A DNA stretch of 27,158 nt from a virus, in the IMG/VR virus record IMGVR_UViG_3300020465_000074, positions 1 to 27,158 of that record; one strand, written 5' to 3'. The notes beneath the pieces were generated by a model. It ran no database searches, was not told the origin of the DNA, and was given only the letters and a program-made list of their open reading frames with translations. Shown piece by piece: positions 6,560-25,530 of the stretch (positions within the stretch are counted from its first letter, which is position 1; each line of letters opens with the position of its first letter). The position numbers and the translations under genes are program-made.

Positions 6560-8167
6560 TTAGAATTCCAGGATGATTTTAACGTCTTCTTTTTGTCGCT
6601 CATTTCGAGCAATCAGAGGTCTATTATCAATATAAACCAATTCCCCTGATCCTTTATTTATCTCAGATTTGGCCAACCCACCTGTGAAGAATACATCGAG
6701 ATTAACCTGCTTATTACCACTAGTAAAAGTAGTAATTCCATTATAATTGTTATCAACATATCCCTTAAATCCAGAAACTTGTCCTTCAACAACAGTTCCT
6801 GATTTAAATGGATATAATTGACCTATTGTAGATATACCAACATAATCAGTATGATCCTGTGCTCCACCATATGCTAATGATCTATCAGTAAAATACTTTA
6901 GAACTTTAGTATCCTTATCAAAGGAAGCAACATACGCTCTTGCCTTAACAGTATCACCTGAAGTGTTTACATATGTTTGATGAATTTCTTCACCAACAGT
7001 AGGATTTCCAGTTACTTTTTCAGTATCTAAACTACTTGTTGGATCATCTTTAAATTTCATCGCATCTAACGATGAAAATTGATCAGCAGTAAACGAAGTA
7101 TTAGCATCAATAGTTGTAGGATTTTTTACAATCCCAACTTGAGCAAACTTTGTATCTATAGGAAAATCTTTAGTGGAATCGTCAAATCTAGCATAGATTA
7201 AGACTTTATCAGTTCCTAATTCTGTATAGATGTCATACCCATGACCTCTACTTGGGGGAATGATTGGTATTAATTTTGCGGAGTTACCAGCAGAATTGTT
7301 ATTAACTGCTCCTAAGTCAACTAACCCATAAGTATATCCTTTACCACCAGCACTAACTGTAACATTGGATATTGTTCCTTGAGAAACATCAACTCTTGCC
7401 TTAGCACCTGTACCATCACCAACAATATCAACTTCTTGACCAGTTAATGGTTGATATTGTTTACCAGCATCAGCAATATAAACATGCTTAATTTGGTTAT
7501 TATTTACTGTAGAATCACCATTTTCTCTAACTGCTCTAATTTGTGGGTCTGTACTTGTTGCCCAATCATTTGGAACTGTTACATATTCTGTAGAATCAAA
7601 TTTAATAATATCACTAGGAGAAACAGTATACAAGTACTTCCAAATATAACCATCACCAGATCCACCAGCTTTTGATGGTTCTAGATCGGTAAATGTTGGT
7701 TCGTCTTGAGAAACATTTCCTTTAGGATTACTTCCAGTTGATCCATTAGCAATACAAATATAAACTTTGAAATCAGAGTTCATTACATAATATTTTGCAT
7801 CATATAACTTAGTTGCTGATTCTAAGGCACTTTTATTCGCACCACTATAGTCATCTCTATAGATTTCATATCTAGTTCCAACTTTCCAATCAATTCTTTT
7901 CACAACCCTTCTAATATTGGCAGAAGTTATCTTCTTACCAAACATCATAGTGTCACTAAGATGAGAATTATTTGAAAAACTATCAAGTGGTTGAGGTGGA
8001 TTTGAATTCCATTGCTCAGATCTACCAAAACCAACTACAGGATCTCCTGCTTCTTTATGTGTGGGATTCGGTAGACCAATAAAAACGTAGTAATTATTAT
8101 TCTCAATAGACTCTACGAAATTAGTGGCATTAAGAATTCTAAATTGATCAGTAACAATTGCAGGCAT
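6560..8167 (-). CDS. 8: Baseplate wedge protein gp8, enlarged
   Basis: This protein of 535 residues is the T4 gp8 homologue; T4 gp8 is 334 residues. Blocks recalled from T4 gp8 recur in order: FGRSEQW at 47-53, GDGYIWKYLY at 171-180 followed by EYVTVP, F.Q..I..NP at about 341-350, and a C-terminal block with GSGELVYIDNRP at 507-518 that ends in ILEF. The extra length sits in two places. Residues about 226-320 include a GGKGY beta-type repeat, and residues about 365-500 include a VEGQVSGFKGYV module. gp8 forms dimers on the T4 baseplate wedge next to gp7 and gp10. It starts at an ATG 39 bases after the stop of the giant upstream gene, and a late promoter lies in that gap. It is followed after six bases by the DUF4815 gene. 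The identity is firm; the placing of the insertions relies on my recall of the T4 protein. Confidence 0.93.
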   Translation of the reverse strand: MPAIVTDQFRILNATNFVESIENNNYYVFIGLPNPTHKEAGDPVVGFGRSEQWNSNPPQPLDSFSNNSHLSDTMMFGKKITSANIRRVVKRIDWKVGTRYEIYRDDYSGANKSALESATKLYDAKYYVMNSDFKVYICIANGSTGSNPKGNVSQDEPTFTDLEPSKAGGSGDGYIWKYLYTVSPSDIIKFDSTEYVTVPNDWATSTDPQIRAVRENGDSTVNNNQIKHVYIADAGKQYQPLTGQEVDIVGDGTGAKARVDVSQGTISNVTVSAGGKGYTYGLVDLGAVNNNSAGNSAKLIPIIPPSRGHGYDIYTELGTDKVLIYARFDDSTKDFPIDTKFAQVGIVKNPTTIDANTSFTADQFSSLDAMKFKDDPTSSLDTEKVTGNPTVGEEIHQTYVNTSGDTVKARAYVASFDKDTKVLKYFTDRSLAYGGAQDHTDYVGISTIGQLYPFKSGTVVEGQVSGFKGYVDNNYNGITTFTSGNKQVNLDVFFTGGLAKSEINKGSGELVYIDNRPLIARNERQKEDVKIILEF

Positions 8168-8206: not shown

Positions 8207-11200
8207 TTATAATACTTGTAATCTTATTGCCCCCGTATTCCTCAATCCCTTAAGTGAAGAATCTGTATAATTCTTCCTTTGGATTGTTGGGAATGATGAT
8301 AATCCAACATCAACAGTGAAACCAGTTACACCAATAGAAATAGGATTTGAATCTCTAGTAGCATTATATAGTCTTCCCCATGATAACCTACCCAAACTAG
8401 TTGTTATTCCAATATTAGTTTGATCAAAACCACCAGTTGAAGCTAAACCTACATGATTAGTTGTACTCAATATATTACATGTAATTTCACCCGTTCTACC
8501 AGAACTTGCTATATCATGTACTTTATAGATGTTATCAGCAAATGATGTACCAATACCAACTATGGATGTATCATGACTATCAACTGAAACAATTCCATCA
8601 CCAATCTTAGTATCCTTAATCATAACAGGATAACCAACTAATAAATCACTAACTGAATAATTTCCAATTGCTTGGAAGAAGAACTTAATAGCAAGAGGAT
8701 GATTATTAGTACCAGTAGTTGTGCTTATACCAGTAATAATTCCAGAGAAACCCTGAACATTACTAATAGATGTTATTTTCTCTGACTCATATTGTGGACT
8801 CTCAATAAGAACCTGAGGTTGTATTGGCCAACTTGCATGATGACTTGATATTCCACTATATCCAAAACCAGGATTTGTAATATCAATACTAATAACTGAT
8901 CCATCAACAATATTTGCTGTAGCAGTAGCAGTTACTCCAGTACCTGACCACACATTATTTGCTCCACCAGTAAATAATCCATCTGGATCTGGAAGTTTAA
9001 CCGTAGGAGCAACTGTATATCCAAATCCACCATCAGTAACTGATATTGAATCTAACTTATACTGTGAAGTATTACCAATAGATGCTAAACTATTAAGTTC
9101 TATAGTTGCTGTTGCTCCTGCAGGTCTTTTTACTTCAGTTCCATCAGATTTAGTAGATCCAGGTAACATTAAAGCATCAACAGCAGCAATATTAACAGAA
9201 TATCTATCTTGAGGATCTAATCTTATTGGTCCTTCTTCATAGAAGAATGCTTCAGCATCATCTACAAATATTCCACCATTTTGTTGTGTACCAGTATTTG
9301 TCTCTACATCAGCAATAATCTTTGCTGTAGGATATATTTGTGGTTCAATAGATTCTCTAGACTTAACAACTAATGATCCTTGAATACTAAGATCAGTTTT
9401 CTGTTTTATCCATTCAAGTGGTCTATCATTAAATTCATCAATACCTGGTCCAGAATATATGTTAGTCTCAACTAAATTTGATGTTAATATCTCTTTAACA
9501 ACTCTATCTTTATCTTGAGGGAAAGTTTCTTCACCCAAACTAGGATGACCATGTAATCTAACTTGGTCACCTGGTCTAATTGTTTCTTGAATATCAACAA
9601 GTTCAACATCAACTCCTCTTTGACCAAGATAGAAGAATACATCCACTTTATCACCAGAATCTGGTGGTTCAGTAAATGTAAATGTTGTTCCACCTTCAAA
9701 CTGATAAGCAATTCCAGGAGTTTGTAATACTCCATTTACAAATATAAGAAGAACAGCATTTAAATCTATAGATTCTGATAATGCTTCATTCTTATCAGTT
9801 TCAAAACTCAATAACTGACCATTAAAGAATAGTGGGAATCTTCTCCTCCTACCATTCTGCATTAATCTAATATCATCAATGAAATCAATTTCACCAAATT
9901 GCCATGCTGAGAAATAATCATTAAAGACTTCAACAACATTCAATTCAAATTCTTGAAGTGGTTCCTGTAATCCAACTGCAGGTACTAAACCAATTGGTTT
10001 TAATCTATCACCAATCTTAAAGGAATGTCCATCTCTTGCTATATCAAATTCAGATATCTCAAACAATGTAGATCCAATACCTACAGTAGTTTTTGCAGCA
10101 CCTACCTTTAAATCAAGAAGCAAATTAACACCAGTGTCTGTAGTCTTACCTACCCCTAATCTAGAAGTACCAACAACAGGCATATTCTCATAAACTGGTT
10201 GAGGAACGATAATTTCAGGATTAACATAACCCGATCCACTATTTTCAATAGTAAATTCTAATGATCCACCAGTTCCTGCAGGAGATTTACCAACATTTAT
10301 TGTAAATGATGTATTAGATGGAATTTCTTCAATACCTACAGGTCTATTATGAATTGGATCAGTTGTTCTTGGATAATCGTGTGTTGTTCTATGACTATCT
10401 TGATTACATGTAAATGTAAGTGTATTAGCAACAAACTGAACATGACTACTTGCTTTTCTTAGTTGATTATCCTTAGCACGTATAAAATTATGTAATGATG
10501 TATCTGAAGCTGGTATGTTTGTTAAACATTGAATTTCAAACTTAAAGTCAGTCTTATTTGAAATTTGTACCCATTTATTGTGAATTGGATCACCTTTTCT
10601 TGGGTAAGCATGTTCACTTAAATAACTGTCTTTTGAGCAATTAAATACTAAAGATTCTTCCTCAATCTTAACATAATCACCATTACTAAATCCATGCTGT
10701 GTATCTGTGGTTATAGTAACAATTCCAACATTAGGATTATAAACAGCATTTTCTATTGTATGGGTTTCCATTACACCAAATCCATGATTGGAATTTGTGG
10801 TAACTGTCATAATACCACTAGCAGGATCATATTTGGCATCACTTATAGTTAATGTTCCACCATTGCTTGATGAAATTGGTGAAGAAGAACTAACAAACTT
10901 ATGATCATTATAAGCAACTCTAGCAGTTACTACAGCACCAGTACCAGCACCACCACCAGGACCAACATTAGTCATGAATGTATTTGGTGATACTGATGTT
11001 ATTGGTAGATAAGCATCATATGCTGGATCAGTTGTTCTTGGATATGGATGTAAACTCATATCAGCATCTTTAGAACATCTAAAGGTTAAACCGCCCTGAG
11101 CAATCTTCAATGACTTAGTTCCTGACATTCCATTATCAGTAGAACTCTTAAATGTATGTTCGTAGAAACCTCCAGATTTAACAGCACCAGCAGTGGCACT

Positions 11201-14200
11201 TACAAAAGTATGAGGATCTGTATTTGTGGAAGGTATAGTAGTTAATACTTGTAATGTTATTGTAGTGTCAGTAGTTGCCTGAACAGTAATTGCTGTATTA
11301 TAATATGGATCATTACCATTAGATCTTGGATATGATTTTTGAGCAGCCGTACCAGTAGCACCACCAAATCCACAACTAAATTTAATAGATTCTTGTTCTA
11401 ATCTAACACTTGTTCCTGATTTTATAGTATGTGTTCCTATCTCAAGAACCATTAATCCAGTATTAGGATCATACGTAGTTCCTGTCGTTGGTGTATAAGC
11501 AACAATTGGACTTGTTCCGACATTTGTTTCAAATTGAGTATCTGTCGCACTGGATACAACTAACCACTTATTACTTGAAGGATCGGTTACTCTTGGATAA
11601 GTATGATCTGATCCATTATTATCCATAGCACAGGTAAATGTGATTGAATTATCATCAAATTTAACCTGTTCATTATTAGTAAACTTATGAGGAACAAATA
11701 CAGCACCAGAAATAGCACTTACAAATGTATGATCATCCACATTAGTAGAAGGTGTTGTTGACAATACATTTACAGTAATCGTACCAGCATCGGTATCTAC
11801 AGCAGTGATTGATATAAACGTATCGTATGCTGGATCAGCACCACCAGCAGGATTACCTGTTCCAGATGATCTAGGATATGTCTTTTCAGCAGCAGTACCA
11901 CCAAATTCACAACTAAATGTTAATGAATTTGGAGCAATCTTAACTTTGTTAGTTGTATTTAATGAATGCTTACCAATATTCAATACCATATCACCTGTTT
12001 GTGGATTATAGTCAGCCCCACTAACATCATAATGTTTACCAGCACTAACAGTCATAATACCAGCAATAGAATCATACTCTGCATAATTAACCTTATAATC
12101 CACAGGAGCAGGTATTGTATGACTTCCATCAATAGTTAATAACAAATCACCAGTAACAGAATTATAATCTGCCTTAGTAGGTGTAAATGATTCACCCATA
12201 AAGGATCCAGTGTATGCTGTAATAGAATTATTAGTTGAACTTACAAACTTATGAAGATAGTTAATATCATTGACTCCAATAGAAACTGGATTGCGATAAC
12301 CAGATCCGAATGTTAATTCATCATAATATGCCCAAACTTCACCATTCTTGAAATAATTATGAGGAATAGTACAAATACCAGCAAATACTTCAAATGTTCT
12401 TTCAGATGCAACTCCAACTAACTGTAAAGGTCTATCAGTATCTTGGAAAACATTGGTTGTTATTCCAGCATGTTGTACCTCACAATCCATCCACATATTT
12501 TCTACTTTAACTGCTTCAGGAGTTCCTAAAGCAAATCCATGTCCAGTATTAGTAGTAACTGTCATAATTCCAGATCTGTGGTCATAATGAGCAGTTTGAA
12601 TACCACCACCAACAGGTCCAACTGATGTTCCAACACCAACAATACTACCAATAGTACCATTAACCAACTTAGGATGAACTCTAGCACCAACTAAAGGAGC
12701 ATAACCACGTCCAACTGTTGATCCTAAAGAAACTATTAATCCACCTCTAGGAATTTGGTTTTGATTAATATCAAATTCAGATTGAATCTTTTGTCCATTT
12801 TCAGAACTAATACCAGTAAATACAACACTAGAAATTCCAGCACTAGTATCTGTTACAATCTCATAATTATTTCCTAAGTTGTTAAGAGTTAAAGGTGTTT
12901 GGAATACTCCATTAACAAATAAAATACCATTACCCACACTAACACCTGTTGATGTATTAGCACCTCCAACAGTTAGAGTATATGTTCTTCCAATTCCAGT
13001 AAATGAATCTGAAAGATCATCAAATATCATATTTGTATCATAATTTGATCTTAAGAAAGTTCTTCCACTATATTCTGCTTTAACATACGGAAGATTAGTT
13101 AAACTTCTTCTTGTTCTAGTATTTCCTTTTGGAGCATCTAAGAACCATGCTGTACTATCAACAACATTAAATGATCCTCTATAAACTTGGACATTACTGT
13201 TGGCAACATGAATTTGTTCTGATAATCCTAAACATCCTCTCTTAACTTTAACAAGAGGAATTGTTCCATTAACTGAATTAATTGTTCCTACAAGATCTGT
13301 ACCAAATCCAACTTCTTCAACCTTCATATATTCATTATTAACCTTTAATACATCTCTTGGTTGAACGGAACTTATTCCACTCAAAGAGAACTGAGAAAGA
13401 CCTATACCAATTGTTGATGGAAGATTATGGTTAATTGAAGTATATGTAATTGGTTGTTGAATAATACCATCAAGTCCAATAACAGTTTTACTCAATTTAT
13501 TTGTCATCTCAAGTTTATGGGCATTACCCTGACCCGAATTAGTAAATGTTATTGGAATAGCATCATCAGCACTTACATACTCTTTTCTACTAAACAACTG
13601 AATTTTATCTGGATCCAATGCCTTAACATATACAGTAGATGGCATTGTTGTTTGAACAAACCCATTATTGTCCATAGTAGCAGCAATTCCTATTGCTACT
13701 GGAGCAACACCTATAAATGTTGAGGCTTCTTTATATGTTATCTCTTCATTATCATTAAAGAAATGATTTGGTATTGTTAATGTACTTCCACCACCAACAG
13801 TTGTAGAAACAGTATTTGGATCTGATGGATTAAATCTCTTAAAGTAAATTGGTGTTCCTTCAAATTTAAGATCAAAATTAACCTTATTTCCTCTACTACC
13901 ATTAGGACCATCATATGATGCTAATATTAAATCACTAGAAACTGGACCATACTCTAGAATATCTGGTTCATTCTCAAAGTCATTTAAAGTACTGAATACT
14001 TCATTATATGCCTGAACTTCAATTAATTCTTCAGTATCAATAAATTCTTGATCTGGGTAGAATAAGAACTCAAGATTTTGTCCAGCAGTATTTGATCCAA
14101 AAGTTCCAATACCAGTATCTGTTCCAACAGAAACGTGTGGATATTGAACTGTTACTGCATCATCATTCTTATCCTGTATGACAATAACTTGATGAATAGC

Positions 14201-17200
14201 AGAAGTAGTTCCACAAGAAACCCTTACAAGAGATTTGACAGTACTGTCATTCTCTATAACAAGTGGTTTAGTTACCATTATTGGTTGTATGCTCCCTGAA
14301 GAACCCTTACCACTAGAATATGAGGATTCATATCTAAGAGTTCTTTCAGATCCTTCTGGTTGATTTGGAACGTTAAATCTGTATGTTCCTATACCAGCAG
14401 TAGTCGTACCAAGTCCAACAATATTTGTACTAACAACTAATGCCGAGTTCCTATCATTAATACAATCAAACGAGATAGTTCCTGATTCTACCTTTGTTGT
14501 TAATATACCAACTTTACTTAAACCACTACTACTGAATGAAACATCTAAAACATCTCCATATATTTCTGAAATATATGTACTTTCTCCATCATAATTTATG
14601 ATGAGTTCATTATAATCTAATTCACCAGTAACTTTGTCTTTTATAATTGAATTAGCATAGAAAGCATTGAAGTCTGTATGTGAAAATTCTGCTATAGTTG
14701 TAGTAGTAACTCCTAATGGAATTGCTCTCCTACCTATAGTAACGTCCATGAATCCAAGATTATTGGTAGATGGACGTGTATTACTCTTACTTAAAGTTGC
14801 AGTATGAGTACTATCAATACTTACAATTTCAGTTCCATCTTCAATACCAGGACCAGTTAGAGTTGTTCCAATACCAACTTTAGATACTGATGTTAAATCA
14901 AAATCCTCACTAGTTAATGTTGTTCCACTTATACTTCCAGTAAATGTAGTTCTACCAACGGCAACATCAACATTTTTACCTACCAAATCAACACATCCAA
15001 ATTCTTTAGTACCAGAAGATACTAAATCACTACCAAATGATGTTTTAATAATCTTAAGATCATGATCTTTTTCAAATTTTTCAGTAGGAGTAAAGTTTAA
15101 AGTTTTTCTATTGAAGGTATCAACATCTGCAGAAAAATCACCAAGTTTTATATTAGTAAAGTCTGATGTTTTTTCTAATATGAAAGCATTATCAGTACTT
15201 GTTAATACTATAAGATCACTAAATTGAGTATCAAATGTATCTGGATCTATAATTTGTACCAAATATTTTGCATAATTTGTATTGATTTCTTCTATTTCTG
15301 TGAATAAATCTTGACTACCTTTACTTGAAAATCTGCCACTAATATCATCATGAATAATAACCCTGTTTGTTCTACACTTAGTGTAATCGGTTAATCTCTT
15401 ATTTCTAAAATTAACAAACTTAGAATTAATATCATCTCTCACATCATAATCATTAGCAAGATCAAAATAATTAATAGTATCTACTCTTCTTTCGGAAGTA
15501 ATATCAAGAACAATAGAAGATACCACTGGTTGAGTAGTTCCTATACCAACAGCACTTACTTTATTTTCTATTATAGTATCTGAGAAATTCTTAAGACCTG
15601 CTGGATGTATTAACCTATTGACTGGATCAACAAAGTCATCCCAAGTTTTTTCACTTTTAATAGAATATGAAAGATTTTGATAATAATCATTATCTGGTAT
15701 TACTTGAAAATCTTCACTCAATTTACCAGTATTATCTAACCAACCATAATCCTGTCTATTAGAATAATCAACTCTAAATTTAGCCTTATTATTAATAAAT
15801 CCAGTTACTGTAGCAACAGTACCACTAGACGATCCAGTAATTCTATCACCCATCTTCAGTTCATCTATTCCATCAATTTTAATAAAATCTTCTCTAGATT
15901 CAACAACAAAAATATCTTTCTCTACAAAATCTAGTCCTTCTTTAACTAAAATAGTTTCATTAAGTGCGAATCTAGCTCTTTTTTGAACAGGAGCAAAAGT
16001 AGGATACTTAGATCTGTTTATGATATTAGCATATCCAGATTGATATGTTTTAGCAATTCCAGGATTTGTACTTACTCCAATTAAATCAAACTCAAGAATA
16101 TCTGGATTTATTGCTTGATAAGATTTAACTTTAAAGAATTGATACTTATAATTTTCGGAATTATAACCAGTCCAACTAGGATCAACAGTTACACCAGATG
16201 CTGATGACTGTTGTGTTCCAATACCAGATTCTCCAAATAATTGAATACCTTCAACAAAAATTTCATCACCCTCTTTAAATGGAGACTCATTATACCCATT
16301 AATAGGTGTTTCCATAACACATCTAGCCACTGTTCCATTAGTGGTCATAGAAACTATTCCAATACCATTAGAGTTATTGATAGCAACAACTCTATGAGTT
16401 ACTGAATCTAAACCTTTAATAGGAGCAATTACATTAACCCCAGTGATACTTTGATATGGAACATTAGCAGTTAATGAAGTTCTATCAACTACCTCATCAA
16501 TTTCTGGATTATAAAGAATCAAATCTGGAGAACTTAGGTAATCAAGACCACCATCAACAACTTCAACTTCGTCAATTTGATCTAAATCATCTATCCTAAC
16601 AACTGGTGGAATAAACGCTTCTGGTCTTAATGTTTTATCTGATGAATATTCAAATCCAAAATCAATTATTCTTATCTGATTGATTTTACCAATAGAAGTA
16701 GACAAAGCTACTACATTAGCATTCTCGCCCCGTAAACTAGTTACGGAAGTAAATCCAGGTACACTCTTATAACTAAAACCTTCTGATATTAATTTAACAC
16801 TCTTTATAGGTCCAACTACTGTTTCGGATTTACTAGAATATTCAATAACATCACATTGATCCTTCTCATATGTCAAAACTTCAGGAACCGATCTTGGTGA
16901 AATCTTAAAGGTTTCGTCAGTAACATCAAATACTTTATAATCACCACTATAATTACTATCTACAAACTTAATTTGAGAATAATTAAGAACACTAGTATCT
17001 GTTGTGCTAATATAACCACCCTTTTCTAAAGCATAGTACATTACAGATGGCAATGCTGTGGAGAATCCTATTGATACCGCAGCACCTACAATATTTCCAC
17101 TAAAGTCAAAAATCTGTCCACCTGTTGTACCTAAACCAACTGTTCCAACTCCAGAAACACTGAATGTTTCTCCTGCTACACCAGCATTAATAAATTCGTT

Positions 17201-20200
17201 TTTATATTCTTTATCATAAAATAGTTTAAAATCAAACCCATCTAAACTACTGGTTGATAAACCAAATGTTAAATTTGAATTTTTAACAACTGTTATTTGT
17301 GGGTTAATTAGAGAAACTTCATGCTTATTACCACCATCACTAGTAATATTAACAATATTTGGCGGTATTGATACAGAATCTTTATATGTCTCAGATAAAT
17401 TAAACTTATTTGAATCTATTTCATGTACAAAATAACCACCAGTAGTTAATCCAGAAGCTATTTCGTCACTATCATAGAATAGTTTGTCACCAGTTTTATA
17501 CCCATGATTATTAATTGTTATGGAATTGTTAAGAGTATCAATGTCTGATGCTTCAAAAATTACAGTATTAATTAATAATTTCTCATGTTCTTTATTGTAA
17601 CTAACTGATACTGGAGCAGTAGATCCCAATCCAACAACAACATTAGGTACAACATTTAGTGATATCAGATCATTATTTTGTAATCCATGAGTTGTTGTAT
17701 TTGCTGCTCCTATTTCAGTAATAACTGTAGAAACAATCCTATCAATATTAGCAGTTAATTGCTCATAATCAGATTCAAATGTATATTCATAATCATTGCT
17801 ACCGTTACCAAAGAAATATAATCCAGCTTCTGTTTTTGCTGCTCCAGCATTTGTAGCAAGTCCTATATGATTTGTACCTTTATCGATAACATATACATCA
17901 CTAACACCACTAGACTGATTTGGAATATAGAACTGATTTGATGCGTCATCATCTCTACCAACAAGGAAAGATGCTTTTGCTAATGGTTTTCTTAACTTAA
18001 CCTTTTGACCTGTTGTAAATGGATGATTTGGTACATATATTGTTTGTGGTGGAACAGGAACTTCAAGACTAATTTCTCCATAAGTGTAATCTAAACTAGA
18101 TCCACTAGTAGTTCCTAATCCAACTGAATTATTTGGATTAAAATATTCAATTTGATTAACTTTAGACTCAAAATAATCAGTCTTAACAGGAATAGTAATA
18201 CGATTGTTTATTACATCAATATTAGAACCATAAGTATGCCCAATACCAGTACCATATCTTCTAACTCTTATAATTTTTTCTAGATCATAAAGATTTAAAA
18301 CTTTAAGAATCTCACTACCAATTTGAATAGATCCACCAATAGAAACTGTATTTGGTATTTCATTAACATAAATGTCTTCAACAGTTCCAGCAGAACTATT
18401 ATTAACATTCATTGTCTTTGCTAATCCAATAATATTTGTACTAATACCAACCTTAAACGAATTATTTAATCTATAATTTGATGTACTAAGACCAGAAATC
18501 AATACTGTATCTTCATCATTTAATGGCAGTGAAGGTAGGAAATGAGCCTGAATTTCATTCTCATTCTGCCAAACCAAAATAGAATTCTCAAATTTAGTTA
18601 AATCAGTCTTAATACTAGAAACACCAATACCAACTATCTCATCAACTATTCCTCTAGCACCAGTACCATTAGTACCAGTATTATCAAAAGTAGTAAAATC
18701 TCCAACTTTATACTTCGATCCACCATCTAAAACTTGGAAACTATCAACAACACCTCTAGTTACTGATTCAACAACAGATTTTTGTTTAATAATCTCATTA
18801 GACTCAATCAAGAAATCATTATCTGCAAATCGATCATTTACTTTATATGGGAATGTATTTCTAGATAAACGAGAAGTATTAAAATCGAAAGATTGATCCA
18901 ATGAAATATTTTCCTGAATCAATGGTAATCTATATGTTTTACCAATAAAATATGGGAATACTGGTGTAATATTATCACTATCTAAAGTAGAAAAATAAGC
19001 ATATATTCCATTAGGGAATTCTGGTGTCTTACAGAATCTACCATTATGTTTATCTAAATCACCGTTAGCATCATATCTCCAATCATTTACAAAGAATCCA
19101 GCAGGAACATCTGGTCTATCAAACCAATCAATATCCTTAACATATCCAGAAACTAAACGCTTAACCTCTCCAATATCATCAGGATCAGAATATCCATATG
19201 GTCCATAAATTGGACATCCATCATATGCCCAACCAATAATAGGAGAATGTGTACCAGTTCCAGCAGCAACATCAACTCCTTCATCATTGAAATGTTCTGC
19301 TAGATGCTTACTATAAGCACTAATATTAAATGTTACTGTATCTGGACTATCACTTAATCTCTTTTTATTCTCTTCATCATATTGCCATGTAGTTGGATCT
19401 TCTGCTAAATGGTAATTGCCAAGAGTATTCTCATGATTTACTCTATCAATAGATAATTCTCTTACTCTAGCATCTAATAATCCATTATGCCCTCTAGCAT
19501 TTACAAATACATTTGTACTCGTATCAGAATATCCAATACCAGTATTAATCACAACAACATCAATTAATTGACCATTATTGATTATTGGTTTTAATTGTGC
19601 ACCACTACCAATAGGTCCACTTATCTCTAATTCTGGTAGAGAATTATATTCTTTACCCCTATTAAGAACAAAAACGTCCTTAATTTCTCCATTCTCTACA
19701 AAAGCTTTTACTTCAGCATCTCTACCATTCTGAATAACGATATCAGATTTTAACTTATGATTAACAACTCTTGATCCATAATGACTACCTTTTTCATAGA
19801 CATATGCTCCAATTATTTCACCTGTAACGATAGGTGTTACTAAATTTGTAAAATTAACAGCAATATTATTATCTGAAGTAGCTTCTATACTTACACTAAT
19901 ATTTGGATATTTAAATACCTGATATCCAGTACCACTAGATCTTAAATCAATATACTTTCTTCTTGAATAGTCTTCAGGATGTGTTAATTTAAAGGAATTT
20001 TCATCAACTTTAACAACTCTATATGAAAGAGAAGTATCTAATCCCTCAATAGTTGTAGGAGAATCTACACCCATACCAACCATTGTAGTATATTCTACAA
20101 GATCATTATCTCTAAATCCATGATTTTTGAAGTTTATAGTATCATAAGAAGTAGATATTCCTGAAGGTTGAACTGGTAATTTTCTATACTGATAATCAGA

Positions 20201-23173
20201 TCCTGCGGTTAATACTTTAATAGATCTCAAAGTATTCTTAGATGTTGTTCTAAATTTATGAATACCAGCAGCAGTAGTTGCTGTTGAGAATCCTATAGTA
20301 TTAATACCAGCAACACCATGTAGAGCATCGTCTGGAGTCTTAAATAATCTAATTCTTGATGGATTTAAAACCTTAACATAATAAGGTGCTCCATTAGTAA
20401 GATATTCAGTAATAGTAGTACTTGGATCTTTAAAAGCAGTAATTCCTATTGGATCATGTCCATTACTATTATAGTATATTAATTGCCCATCTATAAAGTT
20501 ATGGATACCTTTAAATGTAATTGTTTCTTCTTGAATATCTAATCCACCTGAGAAGAATATGTCACGACTATCAAACTGTACTTCCCTAAATCTTGGACCG
20601 ACAATTGGTTCCAACAAACAACCAGTACCATTACCACCAGATAATGAAACTGATATTATTCTATCAATATCAAAATTCTGTTCATCTACAATTATTTCTT
20701 TTACTGTTCCACTAATAACTGGTTCACATAACGCTGTAGTAGCAGCACCCAATACTGTTGTATTGTATTGAGAAACCAAATTTGTACCAACACCTACTGG
20801 GGTCTCTATAACAACCTTAGGTGGATTAACAACATCATATCCAGATCCACCATTAAAAATGTCTATATTCTCTATAGGACCATAATTGATCTTATCATCA
20901 GAAATACATGATCTTATTTGAACACCATTAACCAACAATCCAATATCATTAACTGGTTCTTCTTCTTTAGCACTAACGTTTAAGTCTTGATATAGGTTAA
21001 ACTTGCGAAGAGTTCTATGATCTCTTATCTTTTTATTATCAGTTGATACTGGATATAAGTTGTGAGATACGCCATTAGAAGGTGTTGAATTAAATCCTAT
21101 TGGACTTCCAAAATCAATAGCACTTATTGATTGGTATAATTTAACCTTTCTTCTATCTGTACCTACACCAGCATAATAAACTCCATTATTTTGTAATCCA
21201 ATGGTTGTTCCTGTTCCTGTCTGTAGAGTTGGTTCAGTTGTTCCTGTCCCTGCTCTATAAACAACAGGATCACCGCTATTAAACTTAACCTCAGTTGCGA
21301 AAGTAAACTCTAAGAAATCTATTGGATAGTTTGTTAAGGGATCCGTTTTAGCTGGGCTGGTTAAAAATGGTTCTTCACCAGTTGGAATAGTGTTTACAAT
21401 CGATTCGGCATCTATTTCATAACTTGGAAGTGAATTTGAAGCAACATAACCATAATCATTGTCTTTCGTATAAACATTTAATACGTCAGATAATACTTTA
21501 TTATTACCGTAAGTAATTCCAATTCCAGTATTTTTTGCCGATGCCTTATTAAGAACTCTTCTTATATCATAATAAGCATTTGGATTAGGATCTAAAGACT
21601 CATCTAACCAAATTCTATTTGTTTGTATCAAATTGGGTAGATCAATTTGCGTAATTTGACCGCCACCAACCTCAGTTTGTGTATTTCTTCTTAAAATAAC
21701 AAAACTATCACCTTTTTTTAAACTTGATTTATCAATTTCACTTGCTAACTCAAATGTCGTGTCTCCAGCATCGATAAATCCGTTAATTTGATACCTAGAA
21801 CTAGTATTATAAACCCAAGAATTAGCAAAAACCTGTTTAAATGACTTATTAACACTTTCTACTGGATTTTTAATAGATTCACCTAGATTTTTAACATATA
21901 TCTCTTGTCCTTCGCTTATTAGACTAATATCACCATCAGGTACAAATTCAGATAAAACACCAGTAATTCTTAATTCGGACTTTTTGTTAATATCTCCATT
22001 TTCATAACCAAAAATAGTTTCTGTTGATCTTAAATCAGATGCTATTTCAATATTTTTATCTACACCAGCACATCCAAAAAATTGATTAACTGATTTTGAG
22101 GAATATGTAATAATATTACCATCAACAACAAAATCTCCTGATGTTGGGAACCCAATCGTAGAATCTACTGATATTATCTCCGATCCAGCAGTAACATATT
22201 CCAATACCTTTGATTTTCCTGGTATTGTAAATGTACCTTCGATTAGATCTCTATCACTAAATCCAACAAATAATGAAATTTTATAATATTCTTTTCTATC
22301 TCTTGTTAATATCTCAACTTCAGATACAGATCCACTTGTTTGACTATCTGTAGACTTAGTTATTGTTTGTCCAACTAAATTAGAAGGATTTCCACTTATT
22401 TTCTCTGCTATTATAACTTCTCTACGAATATATTCAGCACCTGATGGTTTAATTAGACGTTCTTCAAGGTCTAAAACTTCAGCATCCTTACCAAATAAGA
22501 CTTTAAAAAGAATTTTTACAGACTCAGATATACCTTTTGATTGATAAAATGATCTAGCAACCTTAATAAAATTACCAACATCAATACCAGAAGCAAATTC
22601 ATTGTCCTCTAAACCAGGTAAGAATGTTTTCTTTAATTTTCTATAAAATTCCTGTAAGAATAGTACACTTAAGTTAGTAACAGTAGAACCTGTAGTATGA
22701 TCAGCAGCATTAGTATCCTTAAATTCTAAAGTTTCTTTATTGACATTCTGTATTGTCGATTCTATACTACTTTTATAATTGGTTACACCACTAAATCCAC
22801 GTATACAACCAGTAAAGGTAGTGTCTGTTTTACCTGTATATGTTATTATTTCATCATCAATCTTTAATAATCCATACTCAGCAGGAAATCCTTTAGTTGA
22901 ATCTACATTAATTGTTGGATTAATAACATCCGTAATTGAAATATCAGAAGTTAATGTAGTTTTACCTGTAATAACTTCAGGAACTAAATTATCAACTTTG
23001 ATATATCGATCAAAGTTTTCTATTATATCACCAGCAGATCCTTGATATTCTAAAGAATTGTAGTAAGTTTTTAGAAAATCAACAGCTAATGGAAAATCAG
23101 CAACCACAAATTCGGGAAGCTGACTTTCTAAGATCTTATTTACCTGAACTCTTTTCTCAAATTCTATGCTCAT
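8207..23173 (-). CDS. 7: Giant gp7-like baseplate wedge protein with YHYH domain and many repeat modules
   Basis: This is a single open frame of 4988 residues. It starts at an ATG one base after the gp6 stop and ends before gp8, which is the position of T4 gene 7 (1032 residues in T4). Residues 202-235 (VARSFYQSKG, ILFKVLFG), 266-271 (LVGQTI) and 301-313 (LFVGFSDRDLIEG) resemble the C-terminal part of T4 gp7 as I recall it (DFYSTKG, FLFKVLY, LVGQTI, LLGRLIAG). The next T4 block (YYVMKIKSN, then IRFVHPVG) has its counterpart only at about 2495-2530 (DYYQNLSYSIKS, then RLIHPAG). Between and after them are repetitive beta-rich modules: at least twelve GG.GY-type repeats, a YHYH-like domain near 1310-1410 (GWAYDGCPIYGPYGY), six F.C...YPR repeats at about 3750-4290, and VNGVLQTPG near 4490. 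The likely role is wedge initiator plus a large peripheral extension. The structural role is confident; the name gp7 is inferred from synteny and motif order. Confidence 0.82.
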   Translation of the reverse strand: MSIEFEKRVQVNKILESQLPEFVVADFPLAVDFLKTYYNSLEYQGSAGDIIENFDRYIKVDNLVPEVITGKTTLTSDISITDVINPTINVDSTKGFPAEYGLLKIDDEIITYTGKTDTTFTGCIRGFSGVTNYKSSIESTIQNVNKETLEFKDTNAADHTTGSTVTNLSVLFLQEFYRKLKKTFLPGLEDNEFASGIDVGNFIKVARSFYQSKGISESVKILFKVLFGKDAEVLDLEERLIKPSGAEYIRREVIIAEKISGNPSNLVGQTITKSTDSQTSGSVSEVEILTRDRKEYYKISLFVGFSDRDLIEGTFTIPGKSKVLEYVTAGSEIISVDSTIGFPTSGDFVVDGNIITYSSKSVNQFFGCAGVDKNIEIASDLRSTETIFGYENGDINKKSELRITGVLSEFVPDGDISLISEGQEIYVKNLGESIKNPVESVNKSFKQVFANSWVYNTSSRYQINGFIDAGDTTFELASEIDKSSLKKGDSFVILRRNTQTEVGGGQITQIDLPNLIQTNRIWLDESLDPNPNAYYDIRRVLNKASAKNTGIGITYGNNKVLSDVLNVYTKDNDYGYVASNSLPSYEIDAESIVNTIPTGEEPFLTSPAKTDPLTNYPIDFLEFTFATEVKFNSGDPVVYRAGTGTTEPTLQTGTGTTIGLQNNGVYYAGVGTDRRKVKLYQSISAIDFGSPIGFNSTPSNGVSHNLYPVSTDNKKIRDHRTLRKFNLYQDLNVSAKEEEPVNDIGLLVNGVQIRSCISDDKINYGPIENIDIFNGGSGYDVVNPPKVVIETPVGVGTNLVSQYNTTVLGAATTALCEPVISGTVKEIIVDEQNFDIDRIISVSLSGGNGTGCLLEPIVGPRFREVQFDSRDIFFSGGLDIQEETITFKGIHNFIDGQLIYYNSNGHDPIGITAFKDPSTTITEYLTNGAPYYVKVLNPSRIRLFKTPDDALHGVAGINTIGFSTATTAAGIHKFRTTSKNTLRSIKVLTAGSDYQYRKLPVQPSGISTSYDTINFKNHGFRDNDLVEYTTMVGMGVDSPTTIEGLDTSLSYRVVKVDENSFKLTHPEDYSRRKYIDLRSSGTGYQVFKYPNISVSIEATSDNNIAVNFTNLVTPIVTGEIIGAYVYEKGSHYGSRVVNHKLKSDIVIQNGRDAEVKAFVENGEIKDVFVLNRGKEYNSLPELEISGPIGSGAQLKPIINNGQLIDVVVINTGIGYSDTSTNVFVNARGHNGLLDARVRELSIDRVNHENTLGNYHLAEDPTTWQYDEENKKRLSDSPDTVTFNISAYSKHLAEHFNDEGVDVAAGTGTHSPIIGWAYDGCPIYGPYGYSDPDDIGEVKRLVSGYVKDIDWFDRPDVPAGFFVNDWRYDANGDLDKHNGRFCKTPEFPNGIYAYFSTLDSDNITPVFPYFIGKTYRLPLIQENISLDQSFDFNTSRLSRNTFPYKVNDRFADNDFLIESNEIIKQKSVVESVTRGVVDSFQVLDGGSKYKVGDFTTFDNTGTNGTGARGIVDEIVGIGVSSIKTDLTKFENSILVWQNENEIQAHFLPSLPLNDEDTVLISGLSTSNYRLNNSFKVGISTNIIGLAKTMNVNNSSAGTVEDIYVNEIPNTVSIGGSIQIGSEILKVLNLYDLEKIIRVRRYGTGIGHTYGSNIDVINNRITIPVKTDYFESKVNQIEYFNPNNSVGLGTTSGSSLDYTYGEISLEVPVPPQTIYVPNHPFTTGQKVKLRKPLAKASFLVGRDDDASNQFYIPNQSSGVSDVYVIDKGTNHIGLATNAGAAKTEAGLYFFGNGSNDYEYTFESDYEQLTANIDRIVSTVITEIGAANTTTHGLQNNDLISLNVVPNVVVGLGSTAPVSVSYNKEHEKLLINTVIFEASDIDTLNNSITINNHGYKTGDKLFYDSDEIASGLTTGGYFVHEIDSNKFNLSETYKDSVSIPPNIVNITSDGGNKHEVSLINPQITVVKNSNLTFGLSTSSLDGFDFKLFYDKEYKNEFINAGVAGETFSVSGVGTVGLGTTGGQIFDFSGNIVGAAVSIGFSTALPSVMYYALEKGGYISTTDTSVLNYSQIKFVDSNYSGDYKVFDVTDETFKISPRSVPEVLTYEKDQCDVIEYSSKSETVVGPIKSVKLISEGFSYKSVPGFTSVTSLRGENANVVALSTSIGKINQIRIIDFGFEYSSDKTLRPEAFIPPVVRIDDLDQIDEVEVVDGGLDYLSSPDLILYNPEIDEVVDRTSLTANVPYQSITGVNVIAPIKGLDSVTHRVVAINNSNGIGIVSMTTNGTVARCVMETPINGYNESPFKEGDEIFVEGIQLFGESGIGTQQSSASGVTVDPSWTGYNSENYKYQFFKVKSYQAINPDILEFDLIGVSTNPGIAKTYQSGYANIINRSKYPTFAPVQKRARFALNETILVKEGLDFVEKDIFVVESREDFIKIDGIDELKMGDRITGSSSGTVATVTGFINNKAKFRVDYSNRQDYGWLDNTGKLSEDFQVIPDNDYYQNLSYSIKSEKTWDDFVDPVNRLIHPAGLKNFSDTIIENKVSAVGIGTTQPVVSSIVLDITSERRVDTINYFDLANDYDVRDDINSKFVNFRNKRLTDYTKCRTNRVIIHDDISGRFSSKGSQDLFTEIEEINTNYAKYLVQIIDPDTFDTQFSDLIVLTSTDNAFILEKTSDFTNIKLGDFSADVDTFNRKTLNFTPTEKFEKDHDLKIIKTSFGSDLVSSGTKEFGCVDLVGKNVDVAVGRTTFTGSISGTTLTSEDFDLTSVSKVGIGTTLTGPGIEDGTEIVSIDSTHTATLSKSNTRPSTNNLGFMDVTIGRRAIPLGVTTTTIAEFSHTDFNAFYANSIIKDKVTGELDYNELIINYDGESTYISEIYGDVLDVSFSSSGLSKVGILTTKVESGTISFDCINDRNSALVVSTNIVGLGTTTAGIGTYRFNVPNQPEGSERTLRYESSYSSGKGSSGSIQPIMVTKPLVIENDSTVKSLVRVSCGTTSAIHQVIVIQDKNDDAVTVQYPHVSVGTDTGIGTFGSNTAGQNLEFLFYPDQEFIDTEELIEVQAYNEVFSTLNDFENEPDILEYGPVSSDLILASYDGPNGSRGNKVNFDLKFEGTPIYFKRFNPSDPNTVSTTVGGGSTLTIPNHFFNDNEEITYKEASTFIGVAPVAIGIAATMDNNGFVQTTMPSTVYVKALDPDKIQLFSRKEYVSADDAIPITFTNSGQGNAHKLEMTNKLSKTVIGLDGIIQQPITYTSINHNLPSTIGIGLSQFSLSGISSVQPRDVLKVNNEYMKVEEVGFGTDLVGTINSVNGTIPLVKVKRGCLGLSEQIHVANSNVQVYRGSFNVVDSTAWFLDAPKGNTRTRRSLTNLPYVKAEYSGRTFLRSNYDTNMIFDDLSDSFTGIGRTYTLTVGGANTSTGVSVGNGILFVNGVFQTPLTLNNLGNNYEIVTDTSAGISSVVFTGISSENGQKIQSEFDINQNQIPRGGLIVSLGSTVGRGYAPLVGARVHPKLVNGTIGSIVGVGTSVGPVGGGIQTAHYDHRSGIMTVTTNTGHGFALGTPEAVKVENMWMDCEVQHAGITTNVFQDTDRPLQLVGVASERTFEVFAGICTIPHNYFKNGEVWAYYDELTFGSGYRNPVSIGVNDINYLHKFVSSTNNSITAYTGSFMGESFTPTKADYNSVTGDLLLTIDGSHTIPAPVDYKVNYAEYDSIAGIMTVSAGKHYDVSGADYNPQTGDMVLNIGKHSLNTTNKVKIAPNSLTFSCEFGGTAAEKTYPRSSGTGNPAGGADPAYDTFISITAVDTDAGTITVNVLSTTPSTNVDDHTFVSAISGAVFVPHKFTNNEQVKFDDNSITFTCAMDNNGSDHTYPRVTDPSSNKWLVVSSATDTQFETNVGTSPIVAYTPTTGTTYDPNTGLMVLEIGTHTIKSGTSVRLEQESIKFSCGFGGATGTAAQKSYPRSNGNDPYYNTAITVQATTDTTITLQVLTTIPSTNTDPHTFVSATAGAVKSGGFYEHTFKSSTDNGMSGTKSLKIAQGGLTFRCSKDADMSLHPYPRTTDPAYDAYLPITSVSPNTFMTNVGPGGGAGTGAVVTARVAYNDHKFVSSSSPISSSNGGTLTISDAKYDPASGIMTVTTNSNHGFGVMETHTIENAVYNPNVGIVTITTDTQHGFSNGDYVKIEEESLVFNCSKDSYLSEHAYPRKGDPIHNKWVQISNKTDFKFEIQCLTNIPASDTSLHNFIRAKDNQLRKASSHVQFVANTLTFTCNQDSHRTTHDYPRTTDPIHNRPVGIEEIPSNTSFTINVGKSPAGTGGSLEFTIENSGSGYVNPEIIVPQPVYENMPVVGTSRLGVGKTTDTGVNLLLDLKVGAAKTTVGIGSTLFEISEFDIARDGHSFKIGDRLKPIGLVPAVGLQEPLQEFELNVVEVFNDYFSAWQFGEIDFIDDIRLMQNGRRRRFPLFFNGQLLSFETDKNEALSESIDLNAVLLIFVNGVLQTPGIAYQFEGGTTFTFTEPPDSGDKVDVFFYLGQRGVDVELVDIQETIRPGDQVRLHGHPSLGEETFPQDKDRVVKEILTSNLVETNIYSGPGIDEFNDRPLEWIKQKTDLSIQGSLVVKSRESIEPQIYPTAKIIADVETNTGTQQNGGIFVDDAEAFFYEEGPIRLDPQDRYSVNIAAVDALMLPGSTKSDGTEVKRPAGATATIELNSLASIGNTSQYKLDSISVTDGGFGYTVAPTVKLPDPDGLFTGGANNVWSGTGVTATATANIVDGSVISIDITNPGFGYSGISSHHASWPIQPQVLIESPQYESEKITSISNVQGFSGIITGISTTTGTNNHPLAIKFFFQAIGNYSVSDLLVGYPVMIKDTKIGDGIVSVDSHDTSIVGIGTSFADNIYKVHDIASSGRTGEITCNILSTTNHVGLASTGGFDQTNIGITTSLGRLSWGRLYNATRDSNPISIGVTGFTVDVGLSSFPTIQRKNYTDSSLKGLRNTGAIRLQVL
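10350..11930 (-). repeat. Six-copy protein repeat (F.C ... YPR) inside the giant gp7-like gene
   Basis: Six degenerate repeats of roughly 75-150 residues are encoded here (residues about 3750-4290). Each copy has F-x-C (FSCEF, FTCAM, FSCGF, FRCSK, FNCSK, FTCNQ), then about 10-15 residues later a YPR motif (KTYPRS, HTYPRV, KSYPRS, HPYPRT, HAYPRK, HDYPRT), then usually DP. The repeats are clear at protein level and diverged at DNA level. The evenly placed single cysteine suggests a folding unit, but its function is not known to me. Confidence 0.8.
18940..19260 (-). other. YHYH-like domain encoded within the giant gene
   Basis: Residues about 1305-1411 of the giant protein contain GWAYDGCPIYGPYGY and, further on, FPYFIG, both hallmarks of the YHYH domain. 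The tetrad that names the family reads YAYF here (near residue 1391), so both signature histidines are lost. The domain is common in cyanophage structural proteins; its role is unknown. A structural rather than metal-dependent role is an inference. Confidence 0.75.
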
Positions 23174-23174
23174 T

Positions 23175-25118
23175 CTACTTTCTTTCTATTGTTCCGTTAG
23201 AATAACTTGATGTGTAATAATCTCTTGAGAATACAACGCCTGATACGTCTTCACCCGATGCAATTACATCCTTAACCATATTTATCTTACTATTAGAAAC
23301 GTCAAAACTCAGGTACAAATCCTTTAATCCAATTACATCATTAGAATCTGGGAATGCCTGTATCTCAATCAAGTTATTTAGAGCAAGTGTAGAAGTGATA
23401 TTGACAGTATTTAAGACAATTTCACCTTTTTTATAATTTACTATACCAACATCTTTAGATACAATCTTCATTTCATTCTTGTCATCCTTAGAAACAATAC
23501 AAATAACACCCTTTCCACTACCATCCAATTTACCATTAGCATTTGTATTGGGAATATCAGTCAAATAAACAGTTTTACTATAACCTGAAATGTTAAATCC
23601 AGTACTCTTAATGTTAAACCCTTCAGGGTTAATATGGAAACGATTTCCAAAACATAACTCATATTGAGCAAATTGATTGATTAATGCTTTTAAATCTCTT
23701 CTAATTCTTACTGTTGTAATGTTTGAAGTGATTGCTTCATTAACCCTATCAATCAACTGATTAATTTTACTATATTTAAATCTGCCACCAAACTTATTAA
23801 TGTCAACATTATCAGAATATGTAGTAAGAGAATCTAAAATATTTGCTTGTAAGTTGGAAGCATTTGTAATTTGTGCTGTGTTATAATAAACTGTTGAATC
23901 TATTTCAACATATAGTATCTTAAGATCAACAATTTCGGAATTTATACCAGCAATAGCATAACTTTTTAACTTATTTTTGATTTGTTGCTTATCAAAATCG
24001 GATACATAAGTACCATTTCTTGGTTTAATACTAATCTGAACTTTACCAAATTGTGGAGGATCTAATTCTTCACCACCAACAACAGCAACAGACTCTGTTG
24101 CAGGGTAAATTGTCTGTATTATTGCCTCATAATCCCTTGGTGTAACCGCCCTGTATTGTGCCGAATATAGTCTAGGAGCCAAATACTTAATAGATGATAA
24201 ATTCTCGTTCTCAGAACCATTTGAGGCACTTACAACAGTATTTACTGTAACAACTGTGTTAGGTTTAATGGGAACGTTATTGTGGTCAACAAAAGTACCA
24301 CCAAAATCAAAGGATCGTGCTCCATTACCCTCTGTACCATCAGTTATAATGTATCTAACATTAATTTTATCACCTGTTTCTAACTTTTTACCAAAGAATC
24401 CATCACCAAATAGTAATTCAATCTTTTCATCTTGAACTTCTTGTAGTAAGAAAATTTCAGAATCTTTGTTTAAGTTTAAAATATTATCAACTTTCTTATA
24501 TTCTCTACCTGTACCAGTAATATTTGTAGGTTTTACATTAACTACAATGGTAGAAGTGTCAATATTGCTATTTCCAAGTATAAATCTTTGATCTTGTTCA
24601 GTATTTACTAAAAAAGCACCGTTTATAAGGGTTCCTTGAACAATATCTACGGAAAAATCAGCATATCTCTTACCATTATTGGTATAAAGGTTCGCTGTTG
24701 TTGCTTCTGAGACTGAAAAACGGTAAGATGTGTCATTTACAGTACCAATGCATACTAAACCAGGATTTAATGTAATAAAAGGTATCTGATCTGGTTGACC
24801 TATCTTAGGATCATCGATCTCAACGGTAAAAGTAACGGATGCTTTTGCTCCAGTCCTTGATCTAGGAACATATCCAATGTTACGAGCAAGCGATATAACA
24901 TTTTCTCTTACGGTTGCAGAGTCCAAAAATGACTCATTTGCCACCAAATTCGCATTAAATGAGTTAATATACGTATTATACGCTAAAGTATCAATTAAAA
25001 CTGAAAAATTAGACCCTTCAAAGTCAAAATCAGTGAAATTTGTGTTTGAAGCAAGGTGATTTTTTATCTCAGTTTTAATTTGATCATAATCTAGGTTGGT
25101 AAATTGTGTAAATGGCAT
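23175..25118 (-). CDS. 6: Baseplate wedge protein gp6 (baseplate J-like)
   Basis: This protein is 647 residues, close to the 660 of T4 gp6. The N-terminal part has the gp6 pattern: a short helical start, then FTDFDFEGSNFSVLIDTLAYNT at about 27-48, then NLVANESFLDSATVRENV and the NIGYVPRS block. T4 gp6 has the equivalents DFEGSRLNVLCDLLAYNT and NGYLPTSKS. A middle part with LAPRLYSAQYRAVTPRDYEA near 310-330 is the typical baseplate J-like segment. gp6 dimers tie neighbouring wedges into the ring around the hub and drive the sheath-contraction switch. The ATG is preceded by AGGTAA on the minus strand, a fair ribosome binding site. It starts four bases after the gp25 stop, and the giant gp7-like gene starts one base after its own stop, so the three are expected to be translated from one late message. 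Confidence 0.95.
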   Translation of the reverse strand: MPFTQFTNLDYDQIKTEIKNHLASNTNFTDFDFEGSNFSVLIDTLAYNTYINSFNANLVANESFLDSATVRENVISLARNIGYVPRSRTGAKASVTFTVEIDDPKIGQPDQIPFITLNPGLVCIGTVNDTSYRFSVSEATTANLYTNNGKRYADFSVDIVQGTLINGAFLVNTEQDQRFILGNSNIDTSTIVVNVKPTNITGTGREYKKVDNILNLNKDSEIFLLQEVQDEKIELLFGDGFFGKKLETGDKINVRYIITDGTEGNGARSFDFGGTFVDHNNVPIKPNTVVTVNTVVSASNGSENENLSSIKYLAPRLYSAQYRAVTPRDYEAIIQTIYPATESVAVVGGEELDPPQFGKVQISIKPRNGTYVSDFDKQQIKNKLKSYAIAGINSEIVDLKILYVEIDSTVYYNTAQITNASNLQANILDSLTTYSDNVDINKFGGRFKYSKINQLIDRVNEAITSNITTVRIRRDLKALINQFAQYELCFGNRFHINPEGFNIKSTGFNISGYSKTVYLTDIPNTNANGKLDGSGKGVICIVSKDDKNEMKIVSKDVGIVNYKKGEIVLNTVNITSTLALNNLIEIQAFPDSNDVIGLKDLYLSFDVSNSKINMVKDVIASGEDVSGVVFSRDYYTSSYSNGTIERK

Positions 25119-25122
25119 TATA

Positions 25123-25530
25123 TTACCTAGTTGGTTCTAATAAAAATGTAAATTCTTGACGAGGAACTTCCATACCCACAATATCATAGTAAATTATGAC
25201 TTCTAAAGTATTGGCATCAGGTTGTCCATTAACTTCTACTTCAACATTATCAACTCTAGGTTCAAAATTTTCTATGGTAGTACGAATTTGATCCTGAATT
25301 ACGGTACGAGTCGTATTTGTATACAATTCAAACAGAGATCCACGAATATCCGTACCTAAAAGAGAGTTAAAAAACTTTTCTGTAGGTATTGTCTCAACTA
25401 AATTACGCACAGACCTAGCAATAGCACGTTCATTCTTTAAAATCGGCATATCCTTTGTAATAGGATGCGGTTTAAAGGATAAACTAATGTCTTTAAAGAC
25501 CTGAGATTGACGTTTTATTACTGTAGGCAA
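25123..25530 (-). CDS. 25: Baseplate wedge protein gp25 (TssE-like), TTG start
   Basis: This protein is 135 residues; T4 gp25 is 132. It carries the conserved EPR motif of the gp25/TssE family at residues 90-92, after a helical region that includes RAIARSVRNLVETIPTEKFF. gp25 with gp6 and gp53 forms the core bundle of the wedge and nucleates the contractile sheath. No ATG exists between the upstream in-frame TGA (25551-25549) and the body of the protein, so TTG at 25530 is chosen; it gives the usual N-terminus (PTVIKRQSQVFKDISLSFKP). I see no clear Shine-Dalgarno sequence. A late promoter lies 24 bases upstream. This is the first gene of the late block, directly followed by gp6. Confidence 0.95.
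   Translation of the reverse strand: MPTVIKRQSQVFKDISLSFKPHPITKDMPILKNERAIARSVRNLVETIPTEKFFNSLLGTDIRGSLFELYTNTTRTVIQDQIRTTIENFEPRVDNVEVEVNGQPDANTLEVIIYYDIVGMEVPRQEFTFLLEPTR

Follow-up and report, generated by a model that had tools for sequence, protein, structure and literature searches.

A giant gp7-type wedge gene with an interrupted core in a metagenomic virus related to cyanophage P-SSM2

Described gp7 proteins and the giant gene of the window

The gp7 protein of phage T4 (NP_049765.1; structures 5iv5 and 5hx2) comprises 1,032 aa, with about 640 N-terminal residues forming domains I-IV and with a domain VI. Domains of T4 gp7 are described as contacting gp9 and gp10, one of them swinging out when the baseplate opens (PMC3004832). 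In Vibrio phage XM1, the wedge is a (gp16)2-gp17 complex in which gp17 is called a T4 gp7 orthologue; within the core bundle, its helices come together with two gp16 chains, and twelve spikes are held by an internal loop and by the C terminus (PMC10457771). XM1 gp17 has only 242 aa. The gp7-like part of Alg12, from AlgoCIS, is described as lying exposed at the baseplate's side, as binding tail fibres and as a hotspot of evolutionary re-engineering (PMC8894135); it differs from the protein studied here in being fused to a gp6-like part. Both proteins are likened to ours by description only. A small wedge, (gp31)2-gp32, is described in A-1(L), a cyanophage from fresh water (PMC10966104).

A giant gp7 as such is already known: the gp7 of P-SSM2 (AAX44489.1, 5,195 aa) is annotated as 'baseplate wedge initiator' and its family is collected in PHROG_2885. 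Sullivan et al. (2010) named gp7 as one of the proteins in the non-cyanophage core that diverge strongly (PMC3037559), and a later comparison considered T4 Gp7 absent from both marine groups and apparently substituted by VrlC (PMC7029224). A search of the open literature by titles and the beginnings of abstracts, with subscription papers and preprints mostly outside it, returned no description of a split gp7 core.

The window, that is the whole stretch of DNA analysed, is a metagenomic virus record of 27,158 bases. On its minus strand, the order of the genes is gp25, gp6, a 4988-aa ORF, gp8 and a giant ORF with a DUF4815 match (Table 1). The order gp25-gp6-gp7-gp8 is the same in P-SSM2, and the 4988-aa ORF occupies the slot between gp6 and gp8. 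This ORF matches the baseplate wedge subunit profile PHROG_2885 with 3814.8 bits, the best stretch placing residues 2-3888 on positions 3-3501 of 4179, which is a match to gp7 of the P-SSM2 type. The P-SSM2 protein resembles it along the whole length and has the same architecture, with gaps of 100 and 2,145 residues and a tail of 2,605 residues, but it is 207 residues longer, and the 200-residue bins of the window protein are 29-69% identical to it. Rfam and tRNA scans over the window found nothing, and NCBIfam gave no match for three window proteins. At positions 26703-27158 on the minus strand, the window matches PHROG_274, labelled 'DNA endonuclease V' (E 3e-35), and Pfam gives only a sub-threshold DUF6445 match; judging by an HxD...H pattern, this product looks more like a 2OG-Fe(II) oxygenase.

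We consider it probable that a P-SSM2-like cyanophage encodes its gp7 orthologue in this ORF, with a wedge core interrupted twice and with the insert and the tail forming peripheral arms. The core would comprise the N-terminal helices (b0), the helices that contain FYQSKG together with the first part of domain V (b1), and a helix bearing HPAG (b2). A module of about 100 residues would lie between the first helices, and a second interruption of about 2,150 residues would lie at the border of domain V or immediately behind it, with about 2,390 further residues past the core. The comparisons given below show that the protein is related to T4 gp7, in which order its blocks stand, that they are interrupted, and that the interruptions are of graded size in relatives.

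The motifs on which an earlier note on this DNA based its proposal of a split gp7 lie where it had placed them: FYQSKG at 209-214, LFKVLF at 222-227, LVGQTI at 266-271 and LFVGFSDRDLIEG at 301-313 in the first block, and DYYQNLSYSIKS at 2496-2507 and RLIHPAG at 2520-2526 in the second. Its figure of about 2450 residues after the second half compares with 2,458 residues behind residue 2530, and the spacing of about 150 residues that it gave for T4 gp7 was right (FYSTKG at 734, LIAGQ at 820, SYYVM at 860 and FVHPV at 882). The name 'domain IV' that it gave to the core has to be replaced: in the naming of Pfam, the core corresponds to the helical domain (T4 643-689), the helices that follow, domain V (766-861) and one more helix after domain V. 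The giant ORF begins 7 residues before its core.

Table 1. Features of the window, with positions on the 27,158-base record and residues of the 4988-aa ORF
Feature	Position	Strand	Residues	Remarks
Probable gp7 orthologue	8207..23173	(-)	4988 aa	ATG start, stop included, uninterrupted frame
gp6, syntenic neighbour	23175..25118	(-)		PF21379 56.5 bits, PHROG_219
gp25, syntenic neighbour	25123..25530	(-)		TTG start; PF04965 54.9 bits
gp8, syntenic neighbour	6560..8167	(-)		PF09215 51.8 bits, PHROG_438
DUF4815 giant ORF	2-6553	(-)	2,184 aa	leaves window end; slot of the VrlC gene of HTVC008M
Core block b0, N-terminal helices	22985..23152	(-)	8-63	profile match in all 10 giants including the window and in 3 compact relatives
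Inserted module A	22679..22966	(-)	70-165	gap 103 residues here vs 17 in phiN3; present in 10/10 giants
Core block b1, helices with FYQSKG plus first part of domain V	22199..22675	(-)	167-325	hmmsearch, hhalign and BLASTP matches to T4 gp7
Second copy of module A, opening the large insert	22031..22219	(-)	319-381	self-match E 8.6e-6
Large insertion, b1 to b2	15737..22198	(-)	326-2479	exact ends uncertain; gap 2,154 residues
YHYH domain (PF14240) inside the insert	18974..19549	(-)	1209-1400	83 bits, cut-off 25
Core block b2, DYYQNLSYSIKS...RLIHPAG helix	15374..15736	(-)	2480-2600	hmmsearch E 0.0033, hhalign to T4 gp7
C-terminal tail	8210..15373	(-)	2601-4988	behind b2
Conserved tail segment	12914..13558	(-)	3206-3420	>80 bits in 7/10 giants
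Internal repeat array	10262..12253	(-)	3641-4304	self-BLAST, best E 7.6e-17

Contents and possible role of the insert and the tail

Module A and its second copy are both found in the ten giants; at the threshold used, neither is seen in T4 or in any of the three compact relatives. The modelled copy is a small barrel that resembles the phage tail protein 9n71_A (Z 9.2, rmsd 1.7, 66 residues). Elsewhere in the insert, the model of segment 861-977 shows a likeness to the E1 FCCH region found in UBA1-type enzymes (Z up to 7.8), and a modelled barrel at 458-541 matches sugar-acting enzymes with a Z of 8.6, a level to be read in the light of the middling values that small barrels often give, such similarity being no proof of function. 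A segment homologous to the YHYH region of the window lies inside the insert of all ten giants, and no YHYH domain was detected in the three compact relatives. The YHYH domain of the window (about 18974-19549) presumably lacks the motif that gives it its name, since the corresponding place reads IYAYF by eye. The shared order of the modules suggests that one ancestral insert was inherited by the giant group.

Identity to P-SSM2, taken in 200-residue bins, is 0.62-0.69 in the core blocks vs 0.34-0.59 in the insert. The tail bins range from 0.29 to 0.69, with the maximum at 3201-3600 (0.65-0.69). The tail segment 3206-3420 is thus conserved to the same degree as the core, and it is a possible contact surface.

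By analogy with known baseplates, the core would fold with two gp6 chains into a (gp6)2-gp7 wedge unit under gp25. The insert and the tail are placed at the periphery because of the analogy with XM1 gp17, AlgoCIS Alg12 and the T4 baseplate; we infer that they form peripheral baseplate arms. With moderate confidence, they would extend outward as strings of small beta domains that form the baseplate periphery, where they would anchor fibres and adjacent peripheral proteins and relay the signal of attachment to the interior. In this role they would replace the N-terminal gp7 domains of T4, which are lacking here, and perhaps also part of the gp10-gp12 rim; cyanomyoviruses are reported to be without g10, g11 and g12 (PMC2984593). 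As a tentative extension, to which we give less than even chances, the Kyanoviridae may have rebuilt the whole baseplate periphery on one chain. The N-terminal arm of T4 gp7 and the gp10-gp11-gp12 rim would then have been lost or never gained, and their job would have moved to an arm of about 2,150 residues leaving the edge of domain V and to the C-terminal tail, a process possibly begun by duplication of the module A barrel into two sites of the core.

The insert could also be, within a correctly identified split core, an arm that contacts the surface of the cyanobacterium by binding a receptor or glycans and is not mainly a scaffold. The YHYH domain, listed in PMC7029224 among carbohydrate-binding and host-recognition domains, is consistent with this, as are the match of the barrel at 458-541 to sugar-acting enzymes and the lower identity of the insert relative to the core. 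However, the length of the insert and the order of its modules are kept across the giants, which fits a scaffold equally well or better, and the barrel similarity indicates no function. We regard a binding arm as unlikely and retain the peripheral scaffold as the preferred role.

Relationship of the core blocks to T4 gp7

Profiles for b1 and b2 were seeded by window residues 166-330 and 2480-2600, respectively, and grown on marine relatives and the phiN3 relative, excluding all Straboviridae. In hmmsearch, with E-values valid for a small test set, the b1 profile matched T4 gp7 at 3.1e-9 (best among 500 shuffled T4 gp7 sequences, 0.24) and the b2 profile at 0.0033 (best of 500 shuffles, 0.09). 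The seven T4-type gp7 tested outranked all 500 shuffles with both profiles. BLASTP of the window ORF against T4 gp7 aligned 209-275 with 734-790 (E 9e-5).

When b1 and b2 from 62 ORFs were joined and compared with a T4-type gp7 profile, as the earlier note had proposed, a strong match was obtained and it crosses the join, so that the absence of a profile match to gp7, the first outcome that the note had named as speaking against its proposal, did not occur. In detail, hhalign, whose E-values in these comparisons are single-pair values, gave one 171-column stretch with Prob 98.6 and a score of 113.0. Taken singly, b1 scored 91.4 (Prob 98.1) and b2 scored 40.0 (Prob 80.0). With the order of the blocks swapped, the score was 89.6 and only b1 aligned; 60 column-shuffled T4 profiles scored at most 25.2. 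The match of b2 to T4 gp7 is modest, at Prob 80 alone. This weakness, together with models that give no reliable contact between b1 and b2, would be expected if b2 were a common baseplate helix motif and not the counterpart of T4 gp7 860-909, the ORF then being an unsplit gp7 N-terminal core with fused modules. Against this stand the order of b1 and b2 and their joint alignment to T4-type gp7, the presence of b1 in all 62 b2-bearing ORFs, and the compact-relative profile, which aligns to T4-type gp7 in three collinear stretches (647-680, 733-759 and 862-909), each of them weak. We therefore judge an unrelated b2 to be improbable, and an interrupted gp7 core remains the preferred reading.

Comparison with known structures leads to the same protein. 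A profile combining 59 relatives with residues 1-1190 of the window ORF, run against 177,635 PDB sequences, gave two matches at E<=10, both of them T4-type gp7 (E 0.00032 and 0.00046). The compact-relative profile gave one match, also gp7 (E 0.14), and single-sequence phmmer with the whole ORF against the PDB gave no match.

The similarity to T4 covers the core. Sequence following the helical domain (T4 about 724-817 and 862-909) is present in the window ORF in T4's order. The helical domain itself, Gp7_helical (T4 643-689), has no Pfam match in the window ORF, and residues 1-66 alone fail to match T4, so that b0 lacks direct recognition of T4 gp7. A bridge to the T4 helical domain is provided by phiN3, whose N-terminal helices match both b0 and the T4 PHROG, the match of phiN3 gp7 to this PHROG extending over 643-832 (E 8.6e-7). 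Pfam Gp7_5th, which represents domain V, is absent from the window ORF at E<=0.1; T4 domains I-IV and VI were not detected, and there was no Pfam Gp7_6th or fn3 match.

These missing T4 domains could mean that the ORF is a mere member of a wide superfamily of gp7/gpI-like wedge proteins and not the T4 gp7 orthologue. We do not treat the N-terminal domains and domain VI as defining gp7, because XM1 gp17, called an orthologue, has so few residues. A superfamily relationship alone is also at odds with the shared slot between gp6 and gp8, with the fact that the sole PDB sequence matches are gp7, and with the search of eight whole genomes by the T4-type profile. In seven of the eight, there was exactly one match, always the ORF in the gp7 slot (E 3.5e-10 to 0.0036), and no second, better gp7 candidate was seen in any of the eight. 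The profile found nothing in HTVC008M at E<=1, where the gp7-slot ORF is recognised by the b1 and b2 profiles. We consider this alternative very improbable and keep to orthology with T4 gp7.

The same search bears on VrlC, the DUF4815 giant, as a substitute for gp7: this candidate was rejected, the T4-type profile having matched only the gp7-slot ORF in seven genomes and nothing in HTVC008M. The present data contradict the claim of a missing gp7 in PMC7029224. An abundant marine phage group thus keeps gp7, against the published comparison, and the site at which its giant version opens has been located approximately.

Insertion point and size of the interruptions in relatives

The structural models bear mainly on domain V. 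The model of L102, a natural compact relative of 896 aa, had a mean pLDDT of 57.2, most helices and b2 being below 50. Foldseek against the PDB gave two matches at E<=0.001 (9f4a_A0 and 5iv5_BJ), with 5hx2_A next at 2.5e-3; these three chains are taken as gp7 from their length and from the PDB profile matches. With VIA, 5hx2_A came first, over T4 767-844 in domain V (Z 8.8, rmsd 2.3, 78 aligned), and an unrelated row for another part of the model reached Z 8.5. The model of window residues 1-1190 had a mean pLDDT of 66.7, and in the models the helices and b2 were mostly below 55. The alignment of the window model to 5iv5_BJ 760-856 covered 94 residues at an rmsd of 3.6 and reached Z 9.0; two rows for other parts of the model ranked above it (9.4 and 9.2). 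Foldseek gave the window model no PDB match at E<=0.001, the best row being 9f4a_A0 at 7.7e-3, and the further rows of Foldseek and VIA are given no weight as to function. The models support a domain V fold in the window ORF, short of proof.

According to alignments and models, the insert probably sits either at the C-terminal border of T4 domain V or directly behind this domain. Adding about 45 residues before b2 to the joined profile raised the score (122.4 vs 113.0), and the L102 model aligns T4 767-844 to residues 237..610; both point to an insert inside domain V. In contrast, the window model closes domain V locally, with 246..421 on T4 760-856, which points to an insert just after the domain. 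With the local closer (379-425), the profile score hardly changed (78.1 vs 77.6); among 40 random closers, the best reached 88.6. Score gains of this size decide no insertion point, because a random closer gained as much.

The central claim of the earlier note, a gp7 core split by a large insert, agrees with the gap of 2,154 residues between b1 and b2 here, whereas the blocks adjoin in T4 gp7. Compact relatives occupying the same slot also have a split core: I899_gp055 of HTVC008M (Pelagibacter; 1,016 aa), gp161 of Melnitz-3 (Methylophilales; 896 aa) and gp105 of phiN3 (Sinorhizobium; 1,006 aa), with gaps of 441, 314 and 744 residues, respectively. Among the giants, the gap is 1,499 in S-RIM44, 2,061-2,268 in eight proteins, including those of the window and P-SSM2, and 2,723 in P-SSM4. 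The smaller module in the first half is likewise real, as the b0-b1 gap is 88-103 residues in nine of the ten giants; it is 599 in P-SSM4. Among the compact relatives, phiN3 has 17 residues there and the two marine phages have 116 and 129. Tails measure 7-211 residues in the three compact relatives vs 472-3,660 in the ten giants. The explanation of the 15-kb gene by an insertion is therefore only partly sufficient: the split core is supported, but the tail of about 2,390 residues also contributes.

Across the DNA examined, 93 ORFs carry b1, and 62 of them also carry b2. The b1-b2 gap is 2,061-2,161 residues in 54 of these 62 and at least 1,499 in 59; this narrow spread partly reflects relatedness, because 49 of the 62 are IMG/VR contigs chosen for their similarity to the window. 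Of the 31 ORFs with b1 and without b2, 29 run past the end of the examined DNA, with no more than 1,635 residues following b1; the other two, in L085 and L041, stop before b2. Although the window is a metagenomic virus record, an assembly artefact or chance fusion is practically ruled out by the uninterrupted 5,195-aa counterpart in P-SSM2, which resembles the ORF from end to end, and by the gaps of at least 1,499 residues in 59 of the 62 two-block ORFs.

One part of the core can thus host a huge addition, an arrangement common to the window virus and its relatives. The series of gaps from 314 to 2,723 residues offers material on how the core of a contractile tail takes up large insertions, and it provides definite residues as targets for cryo-EM. 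Families that carry the labels 'head closure' and 'virion structural protein' become a wedge protein with a size series.

The HTVC008M protein (L005:8506-11556) is annotated as 'head closure Hc2' (PHROG_3465), and its slot and both blocks identify it as gp7; the label of this family looks wrong. In S-SSM7, two genes are annotated as gp7 (L009:15989-25012 and 26078-33320), and in the DNA examined only the first has b1 and b2. The gp7 of P-SSM4 (L008:5390-27328) is larger still than that of the window, with 7,312 aa, insertions of 599 and 2,723 residues and a tail of 3,660 residues.
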